Origin: Rhodospirillaceae bacterium
GTDB lineage: Bacteria > Pseudomonadota > Alphaproteobacteria > UBA6615
Direction of reading: 5' to 3'
NCBI GenBank assembly: GCA_018667335.1
Contig: JABIVD010000007.1
Location: 1 to 64,000 of the forward strand
DNA length: 64,000 nucleotides
Positions within the stretch are counted from its first letter, which is position 1. Each line of letters starts with the position of its first letter. The notes beneath the pieces are model-generated. The model worked only from the letters and a program-made list of their open reading frames with translations. It was not told the origin of the DNA and ran no database searches. Below, in pieces: positions 18,327 through 36,016 of this stretch. Both the position numbers and the translations under genes were made by a program.

Positions 18327-18905
18327 ATGGCTGCTAACTCACCCTGGAGCGTAAAGGGCGTTGACCCTGAAGCGCGCGAGGCGGCGAAAATTGCCGCGCG
18401 CAAGCAGGGCGTCAATGTCGGCCGCTGGCTGTCCCAGACAATCCTGGCGGCGGCATCTGAAGAACTGCGTACGAAGCGTAACGATTCCGACGACCGGTTT
18501 GCCGACAACGGAAACAATGCGAACCGGCCCCGCGAAGTGCATCGCGAAGAGCAGCACTATGACAATCCCCCGCGCCAGGACAACACGCCGAGCGGCCCCC
18601 CGGCATTGACGGCCGAGGCCGTGCTCGAAAGCATTCAGAAACTGGCCAGTCGGATCGAGCAATCCGAGCATCGAACGACCGAAGCGATCCAGCCGATCGC
18701 GCAAAAGGTCGGCGAACTTGGAGAGCAAATCGAAGAGATCAAATCCACTGCGGGTGGCGCATCCACGGCCCCTGTCGAACGCGCGATGATGCGATTGTCT
18801 GAACGCCTTGATCGGATGGAAGACACCTCCAAGGGTCCGAGCCGGCCGAGCCGAACATCGGACGATGGCGCCGGGTTCCTCGGCCGCCTGTTCGGGCGCG
18901 ACTAA
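18327..18905 (+). CDS. PodJ-like N-terminal domain protein, small, coiled coil
   Basis: 192-residue hydrophilic protein. Its first 40 residues (SPWSVKGVDPEAREAAKIAA, then RKQGVNVGRWLSQTIL) match the short N-terminal helix module found at the start of alphaproteobacterial PodJ-like polar-localisation and Sel1-repeat proteins. A disordered, Asn/Pro-rich linker follows (residues 50-90), then a coiled coil of about 75 residues (EAVLESIQKLASRIEQSEHR onward). It ends in a compact GFLGRLFGRD tail. In many relatives these parts belong to one long protein with a membrane helix, Sel1 repeats and a peptidoglycan-binding domain; here those parts are in the next gene, 218 bp downstream. No membrane segment. 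Role in cell polarity or envelope organisation is inference. Confidence 0.8.
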   Translation: MAANSPWSVKGVDPEAREAAKIAARKQGVNVGRWLSQTILAAASEELRTKRNDSDDRFADNGNNANRPREVHREEQHYDNPPRQDNTPSGPPALTAEAVLESIQKLASRIEQSEHRTTEAIQPIAQKVGELGEQIEEIKSTAGGASTAPVERAMMRLSERLDRMEDTSKGPSRPSRTSDDGAGFLGRLFGRD

Positions 18906-19123: not shown

Positions 19124-20371
19124 ATGGCCGATCGCGAAGACGAAACCTCATTATCCGCCGAAGAACAGATCATGCGCGCGCTCGAAGAGCTCGGGTCGAT
19201 CGTCGATTCCCAGGCCGACCGGTTGTCGGTAAAACTGGCGCCGGTAAACCGATCCGTCGAGGCGATTGAACGGAAGCTCGAAGAGCTGGGCTATGGCCCG
19301 GCAAATCAGACCGGTCACGACGTGGTGCGGCCCGACGGTCCGGTATCGGACTTCGAGGGGACGGGTCTCGATGAGGACGAACCCGAACCCCTGGCAATCA
19401 CGACCACGCACGGCCAATCCGACGGCGACGAAACGCAGCATCTCGAACCTCATGAGGATGCCGGGTCTCCGCACCAGGACGAACCTCCTGTCGTTGCCGA
19501 ACCTCCCGAGGATGCCATACCTCCCGAGGATGACGAACCTCCCGAACATCTCGAATCCGACGATCAAGGACCCGAAGGCGACGAGACGACCGTCGACCAT
19601 CCGAGCGACACGGATCCAGACGTCAGTTGGGTGCGCGATGATGATGTCGGCAATGAAGCAAGCGGCACCACCGCAGCAGAAAACAAATTCGAAACCGAAT
19701 TTGCAGATGAGAACGAATTCGCCGACGAAAACGAATTCGAAGCCGATGACGGCACCGCCGAACGGTGGGAAGAGGATATCGCCGAGACGCCGGCCGACCT
19801 TCCGTTCGAGGCCGAGGGGTTAACTGAAGAAGACATCAGCCTCGCCGACGAATCACTCAAATCCGAACTCGTGAATCTGTTCGACGACGGCGAACACGCG
19901 ACCAGGCAGGAGCCCTCTCTGGGGCCCTCCACGATGCCGCCGCCCGTCCCGAGCGTCCCCAAGCGATCCCGCCCCATGTATTTGCTGGTGCTGGCACTGC
20001 TGTTCCTGGTGGGCAGCGTCGGCATTGGCGCCTTCGTCTGGCTCGAACTCACAACGCCAGAGCTGCCTGTTGCGATCAATGACAGTCTGACGACGGATAC
20101 GCCGGCCCCGACCACCGACGCGACACCCGAACCCAACAGCGTCCTCCCGTCGGCCGCCCCTGCCCCGACTGCCCCGGCCGCCCCTGCCCCTGCCGCCCCT
20201 GCCGCCCTGGCCGCCCCTGCCGCCCCTGCCCCTGCCGCCCAAGCGCCCAAGCGCCCAACCCGGTGGCGCCGTCTCGCGAAACGCCCGCACCGCCGTCTCG
20301 GGAGACGCCCGCACCGAAGAACGCCGAGGCGAACAAAAACGAGATCGCCGAGCTGCCCGATCCCGAACTGA
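19124..20371 (+). CDS. PodJ-like Sel1/PG-binding protein, 5' part of a frame-broken gene
   Basis: The first 370 or so codons encode a coiled-coil start (AEEQIMRALEELGSIVDSQA), a long acidic Glu/Asp-rich cytoplasmic segment, one membrane helix at about 287-309 (LLVLALLFLVGSVGIGAFVW), and an Ala/Pro-rich periplasmic linker. From about 20249 the frame becomes Arg-rich nonsense and stops at 20371. The natural continuation (Sel1 repeats and peptidoglycan-binding domain) is in another frame at 20263-21396. An 8-bp tandem duplication at 20241-20256 sits exactly at the break; removing one copy restores one 754-residue frame from 19124 to 21396. The locus is therefore a pseudogene, a phase-variable gene, or a sequencing artefact. 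Confidence 0.8.
   Translation: MADREDETSLSAEEQIMRALEELGSIVDSQADRLSVKLAPVNRSVEAIERKLEELGYGPANQTGHDVVRPDGPVSDFEGTGLDEDEPEPLAITTTHGQSDGDETQHLEPHEDAGSPHQDEPPVVAEPPEDAIPPEDDEPPEHLESDDQGPEGDETTVDHPSDTDPDVSWVRDDDVGNEASGTTAAENKFETEFADENEFADENEFEADDGTAERWEEDIAETPADLPFEAEGLTEEDISLADESLKSELVNLFDDGEHATRQEPSLGPSTMPPPVPSVPKRSRPMYLLVLALLFLVGSVGIGAFVWLELTTPELPVAINDSLTTDTPAPTTDATPEPNSVLPSAAPAPTAPAAPAPAAPAALAAPAAPAPAAQAPKRPTRWRRLAKRPHRRLGRRPHRRTPRRTKTRSPSCPIPN
20151..20240 (+). repeat. GCC/CCT-rich Ala-Pro coding repeat
   Basis: A low-complexity tract of GCC, CCT and CCG codons encodes an Ala/Pro linker between the membrane helix and the Sel1 domain. It ends directly at the 8-bp duplication. Such tracts are prone to slippage in replication and in sequencing. 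Confidence 0.8.
20241..20256 (+). repeat. 8-bp tandem duplication that breaks the reading frame
   Basis: AAGCGCCC occurs twice back to back (20241-20248 and 20249-20256), flanked by CCC before and AAC after. Eight is not a multiple of three. With two copies the 5' frame reads Gln-Ala-Pro-Lys-Arg-Pro-Thr-Arg and runs out of frame; with one copy it reads Gln-Ala-Pro-Asn-Pro-Val-Ala-Pro-Ser-Arg-Glu-Thr straight into the downstream domain. The whole gene length minus 8 (2265) is divisible by three. Confidence 0.85.
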
Positions 20372-21396
20372 CAACCGAAGCAGCATCGACAAACGCCGCG
20401 CCCCTCACCGCGGACAACTCAGGCGCCGAGACACCAACACAACCCGCGGAGAAAGAGGAAGCGCCTGCGTCCCTCAATCCGGAGGTCGACGCACTCCACG
20501 ATCTGGCGATGGCAGGCGATAGCGTTGCGCAAAATGAACTCGCGATCCGATATCTGTTGGGCCGCGGCATCGCACAAAACTACGACCAGGCCGCGCGATG
20601 GCTTCAGGAAGCCGCCGCCGGCGGGGTCGTCAGCGCACAATATAATCTGGGTGTTCTCTATGATTCCGGCCGCGGGGTTGAGGCGGATCCGGTCGAGGCA
20701 CTGATCTGGTTCCACAGCGCGGCCGAAAAGGGACATGGCCGCGCGCAGTATGCGCTCGCCGCCGCATATGCGGCAGGACGGGGCATCGAGCGCGATTCCG
20801 ATATGGCTCTGAAATGGTTGCGGCGTGCAGCCGAGGAAAACATCCTCGAAGCGCAGAGCTCGCTCGCCAATATCCTGGCAACATCACCCGTGTCGCCCGA
20901 CAGCCTGACGGATGCCTATTACTGGTATCGACTGGCCGATGCGAACGGCGACAGCAAAGCCGCCGACCGGGCAGAGTTGGTCGCGGCGCGCCTGACACCG
21001 GCAGAACGCGCTGACGTCAATCGCCGTGTGTCGGCGTTCATCGCCGCGAACATCACCGCCAAACGGCCGCGGATCACCCCTTCGGTGTCACCCGCGCCAC
21101 CAGCTCCGCCCGCACCACCGGCACCGCCGGTCTCCGCACCGCGCGCGCCCAATGCATCGCCGGCAGGCACGCAGAACGCGACAGCCCGCGCCGAATCGAA
21201 CGCAAAAACCATCGGCAGAATACAAACCCTGCTGATGTCCGTTGGATTTGATCCTGGTCCGGCCACCGGTTCGCTCAACGCGAAAACGCACGATGCCATC
21301 CGCGACTATCAACGCGCGCTCGGCCTCGACATAGACGGACAACCATCCAAGAGCCTGCTTTCGCATCTACGCCAGATCTCGGGGCTCCGGAAGTAA
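20263..21396 (+). CDS. Sel1-repeat and peptidoglycan-binding protein, 3' part of the frame-broken gene
   Basis: This frame encodes an Ala/Pro-rich linker with a duplicated PSRETPAP motif. Sel1-type repeats follow (DSVAQNELAIRYLLGRGIAQ, then SAQYNLGVLYDSGRGVEADP, RAQYALAAAYAAGRGIERDS and a fourth weaker one), then a Pro/Ala spacer. A C-terminal peptidoglycan-binding type 1 domain ends it (IGRIQTLLMSVGFDPGPATG, ending LSHLRQISGLRK). The nominal start is a GTG at 20263 without a ribosome-binding site, so it is unlikely to be translated alone in the right compartment. It belongs to the gene starting at 19124. In intact relatives this part is periplasmic. Confidence 0.8.
   Translation: MAPSRETPAPPSRETPAPKNAEANKNEIAELPDPELTTEAASTNAAPLTADNSGAETPTQPAEKEEAPASLNPEVDALHDLAMAGDSVAQNELAIRYLLGRGIAQNYDQAARWLQEAAAGGVVSAQYNLGVLYDSGRGVEADPVEALIWFHSAAEKGHGRAQYALAAAYAAGRGIERDSDMALKWLRRAAEENILEAQSSLANILATSPVSPDSLTDAYYWYRLADANGDSKAADRAELVAARLTPAERADVNRRVSAFIAANITAKRPRITPSVSPAPPAPPAPPAPPVSAPRAPNASPAGTQNATARAESNAKTIGRIQTLLMSVGFDPGPATGSLNAKTHDAIRDYQRALGLDIDGQPSKSLLSHLRQISGLRK

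Positions 21397-33763: not shown

Positions 33764-36016
<2,253 letters not shown>

Follow-up and report, generated by a model that had tools for sequence, protein, structure and literature searches.

The locus at positions 19124–21396 of the window, that is, of the whole 64-kb stretch of Rhodospirillaceae DNA analysed here, raises a simple question. Why does a gene with all the parts of a membrane-anchored, wall-binding protein change reading frame in the middle of its linker? An initial annotation had described it as one gene split by an 8-bp duplication, and the unbroken state of the gene in four syntenic relatives supports this description. Since the gene is whole in these related genomes, the break looks like a mutation of a common sort and of recent date, or else like a slip in assembly. 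The feature is real in the sequence as given and nothing unusual in type: either a frameshifting duplication that is private and lies in a PodJ-like gene, or an error of assembly. With moderate confidence we favour the first of these, a loss-of-function mutation that arose recently, truncates the product and is carried by the cells that were sequenced; an assembly artefact is its main rival.

Structure of the interrupted gene

The 5' part of the gene appears in the list of open reading frames (ORFs) as a 415-aa ORF on the forward strand (19124–20371); two congeners have proteins of 726 and 733 aa whose N-terminal halves align with it. The ORF has a conserved MADRED N-terminus, which is followed by an acidic low-complexity region, a single membrane helix, and the first stretch of an Ala/Pro linker. 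The helix, MYLLVLALLFLVGSVGIGAFVWLEL (19976–20059, forward strand), was read by eye from the sequence and is conserved in the proteins of the relatives. The final 43 residues of the ORF, from 20241 onwards, have the composition of an out-of-frame, Arg-rich tail. The 3' part (20263–21396, forward strand) was recognised by Pfam matches and by a one-piece alignment to four relatives. It carries the remainder of the linker, Sel1 repeats, a Pro-rich spacer, and a peptidoglycan-binding domain, and comprises 377 aa when counted from GTG 20263. The domains named in the initial annotation were recovered in this part, with E-values of 1.6e-29 for Sel1 and 8.5e-10 for PG_binding_1. The product of the intact gene would probably be a membrane protein linking the cell interior to the wall, with a topology that is predicted from sequence.

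The 5' frame runs open until it meets a stop at 20369, and the 3' frame has no stop between 20083 and its own termination codon at 21394. Because both frames are open at 20083–20368 (forward strand, from the stop positions), the frame change must lie within this overlap. Codon usage narrows it further, as a change-point analysis places the frame change at 20236–20261 with a posterior of 0.75–0.87. Above the break the 3' frame reads as Cys/Arg-rich nonsense, and below it the 5' frame gives the Arg-rich tail. The span 19124–21396 measures 2273 nt, and subtraction of 8 nt leaves 2265 nt, or 755 codons with the stop and 754 without it. The stop positions and this arithmetic bear out both the frame offset and the rejoined 754-codon frame proposed earlier.

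The tandem repeat at the junction

The proposed exact 8-bp tandem duplication was found where it had been placed, as two consecutive copies of AAGCGCCC at 20241–20256. The period-8 identity extends beyond the 16 bp given in that proposal and forms a perfect run of 23 bp, with 2.9 copies of CGCCCAAG, at 20236–20258 on the forward strand (tandem-repeat scan, chance test, and change-point). Such a run is rarely expected by chance. When the ~285-bp overlap was shuffled, non-triplet exact tandems of at least 23 bp arose in 0.15% of the dinucleotide shuffles and 0.08% of the codon shuffles, and shuffles of the whole 64 kb gave a mean of 0.1 runs of this kind versus 2 observed. A 367-codon open frame on the minus strand has an exact 10-bp tandem repeat, likewise of 23 bp, within its final codons (34954–34976). 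The frame offset would also be compatible with a one-base slip in the neighbouring C run, but the duplication appears to be the better explanation because the repeat is exact.

A survey of 875 kb of the genome, in which contig positions 80001–152000 read N, returned 9 non-triplet exact tandems of at least 20 bp versus 29 with a triplet period. The junction tract has the highest copy number among the nine. Of the eight others, one abuts the end of a surveyed stretch; the seven that were placed lie at or near the ends of their longest open frames, one of them ~50 codons in. The junction tract is therefore the only placed non-triplet tandem deep within a conserved gene in the surveyed part. The 15-mer at the junction has no other exact copy in the genome, and its single one-mismatch site does not exceed the reversed control.

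The locus in related genomes

An unbroken syntenic ORF with its parts in the same order is present in two congeners, G005 (726 aa; Rhodospirillaceae MAG, JABJEK010000022.1) and G006 (733 aa), and in two members of the sister genus, G011 (665 aa) and G020 (652 aa), with one genome per species compared. The 8-bp tract is absent from all four. A further genome, G003, is uninformative on the junction as its gene is cut by contig ends. The order gmd, WSVKG gene, split-gene ortholog, ispE, TPR gene, ETF-QO is kept in G005, G006, and G011, and G020 keeps the gmd-to-ETF-QO order up to the contig edge. As the orthologs are unbroken in these four syntenic relatives, only this lineage, or only its assembly, carries the break.

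The WSVKG gene is the upstream partner of the split gene. It lies at 18327–18905 on the forward strand, encodes 192 aa with a WSVKG N-terminal domain (ORF list and relatives' loci), and is kept beside the ortholog in relatives. In G001 and G004, gmd adjoins ispE, and the WSVKG gene and the PodJ-like gene are both cleanly deleted (L113, 5230–7410, and L114, 10073–12565, respectively). These two genomes form one clade in the ETF-QO tree (support 95/98). Since this clade has cleanly deleted the gene together with its partner, loss of the gene is tolerated, and the PodJ-like gene is dispensable.

In G011 and G020, the small gene has a similar WSVKG domain, as does the long gene at its N-terminus, and a further small copy is found upstream. 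From this distribution, drawn from 18327–18905 of the window and from loci L036, L037, and L116, the WSVKG domain genes look like a small local family. Additionally, the flagellin family had no match in the window's genome or its congeners except G006, and all seven of these genomes have the PopZ family PF10691. Presence of flagellin did not track presence of the split gene across genomes.

Constraint and age of the break

The Sel1 part has a dN of ~0.1 versus a dS of 0.7–1.0, and only 2 of its 189 positions carry changes seen in the window alone. With G011 and G020 as outgroups, the window branch is no faster than its congeners in this part. The relative-rate tests relied on were those with G011 as outgroup; runs with a congener as outgroup were set aside as invalid because the window branches first. 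In the peptidoglycan-binding domain, 5 window-only changes were counted versus 0–7 in the others, which speaks neither for nor against relaxed selection. Moreover, no further stop or frameshift was found in 437 codons. The substitution patterns show that strong purifying selection still acts on the Sel1 part. A pseudogene of some age was considered and is disfavoured by this constraint on the Sel1 part and by the lack of any other stop or frameshift. The constrained Sel1 part and the absence of a second lesion imply that the break is recent or not real, and the continued constraint on the 3' part fits an intact gene equally well.

Origin of the frame change

Replication slippage is a likely source of such a duplication in this gene. 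The linker of this lineage holds four short in-frame tandem arrays that are absent from relatives, and an in-frame 24-bp tandem duplication (SRETPAPP unit; 20267–20316, forward strand, tandem-repeat scan) lies just past the junction. These private arrays and the adjacent duplication suggest that slippage is active in the linker. The acidic part of the same gene contains 18-bp in-frame tandem repeats at 19480–19555 and 19690–19739, which may be signs of the same slippage expansion.

We infer slippage as the cause of the break, loss of function as its effect, its recency, and the presence of the tract in the organism itself, all from a locus known by a single consensus sequence, in which fixation is not readable. 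Replication slippage would lengthen the low-complexity linker, in most cases by a multiple of three. Before the event, the tract would have contained two 7-bp direct repeats, CGCCCAA, set 8 bp apart. A slip between them would add one extra 8-bp unit and thereby shift the reading frame of the 3' part. The resulting product would stop 43 residues past the junction, keeping the cytoplasmic and membrane parts and losing the wall-binding part.

The main rival holds that the second copy is an assembly or consensus error and that the organism has one copy and a whole gene. Several features of the locus speak for such an error, which is nevertheless rather unlikely in our estimation. The tract is GC-rich and adjoins a repetitive linker, the assembly is a draft in 62 contigs, 4 of 4 complete relatives have the gene intact, and the 3' part here is without decay. 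However, the 23-bp run is far below read length, and false collapse rather than expansion is expected of tandem repeats in assembly (PMC12817950). The compared part of the contig also shows no other true frame break: none was found in ~68 contig genes (~24,000 codons) compared with G006, which indicates that the assembly is not generally frame-broken. Candidate breaks near 57.4, 68.0, 68.2, and 74.8 kb of the contig proved, when the alignments were read, to be ORFs over-extended upstream of their real starts. Tract length, assembler behaviour, and the frame-break survey together make an artefact less probable.

The initial annotation had also raised the possibility of a contingency locus, in which reversible gain and loss of 8 bp would toggle the periplasmic domain and both states would be selected. 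This suggestion did not hold up well and is now thought quite improbable. It is true that the repeat is exact and its unit is not a multiple of three, so that losing one unit would rejoin the frames. Furthermore, pneumococcal capsule is controlled by reversible duplications within ORFs (Waite 2001, 2003, as cited in PMC4243769), and in Caulobacter PodJ a role is known for the domain that a switch would remove (PMC8980812). Phase variation, on the other hand, is defined by one variable locus that switches reversibly and at no less than a minimal, measurable rate (PMC11868660). The tract has only 2.9 copies and is absent from all relatives compared, the surveyed part of the genome is poor in non-triplet tracts and has no other deep inside a gene, and the gene has been lost outright in a sister clade within the genus (G001 and G004). 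Low copy number, non-conservation, and this loss disfavour a switch maintained by selection. A narrow literature check found no repeat-number cut-off for phase-variable octamers. It is a shade more doubtful still that the tract is a true low-rate reversible switch between the full-length protein and a PodJS-like, wall-free scaffold of polarity type.

Least probable of all is independent initiation of the 3' part, or its synthesis through a programmed -1 frameshift: both frames are open for ~285 bp, a one-base backward shift would join them, and the 3' part is under constraint, but the gene of the relatives is one frame without any shift, the frame change falls on the repeat and upstream of the A5 run near 20334, and no Shine-Dalgarno-like sequence precedes the early 3'-frame starts (GTG 20263, ATG 20509, and TTG 20557), whose products would have neither signal peptide nor membrane helix, which leaves no plausible independent start. 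The single-frame relatives and the position of the frame change support the earlier preference for a duplication over a programmed shift.

Under the favoured reading, a recent truncating duplication, the locus would provide a clean worked case of a slippage-grown low-complexity linker breaking a gene, within a genus in which a polarity-type gene pair is being lost. If switching were true instead, cell polarity would join the phase-variable traits.

Comparison with known systems

PodJ of Caulobacter crescentus is a polarity scaffold (PMC8980812) with which the protein of the relatives shares the order of parts: a cytoplasmic part, one helix, periplasmic repeats, and a peptidoglycan-binding domain. 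The same order is obtained when the two halves are combined here, with the helix as read by eye. The likeness rests on this order of parts rather than on direct sequence comparison with Caulobacter PodJ, and to this extent the PodJ-like label of the initial annotation stands. It does not extend to the N-terminal domain of PodJ-type relatives. In distant relatives (L006, L007, and L039), the WSVKG N-terminal domain and the Sel1/peptidoglycan-binding part are joined in one protein, whereas this genus has the WSVKG domain in a gene of its own upstream, at 18327–18905. Unlike PodJ, in which a long coiled-coil cytoplasmic part bears the WSVKG-type N-terminus, the split gene encodes a short, acidic cytoplasmic region without the WSVKG domain. 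A form that lacks the periplasmic part, PodJS, occurs naturally in Caulobacter through cleavage, and PodJ variants without this part lower the CtrA pathway (PMC8980812). There the short form arises by proteolysis, whereas the truncation here is genetic. PodJ also localises to the pole and recruits PleC.

As to the repeat itself, a close parallel is offered by the pneumococcal capsule genes, as they are described in PMC4243769 (Waite 2001, 2003). These genes, like the present one, carry an exact tandem duplication within an ORF, and loss of a unit restores the frame. According to the same account, reversion has been observed in them and both states matter to the cell, whereas the present locus is known from sequence alone. 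A similar relation holds to phase-variable genes with simple sequence repeats, in which the frame likewise depends on how many copies of a short non-triplet unit are present. Mutation in tracts of that class is 100–10,000 times faster than elsewhere in the genome (PMC11868660), whereas the tract described here measures 23 bp and is present in one genome only.
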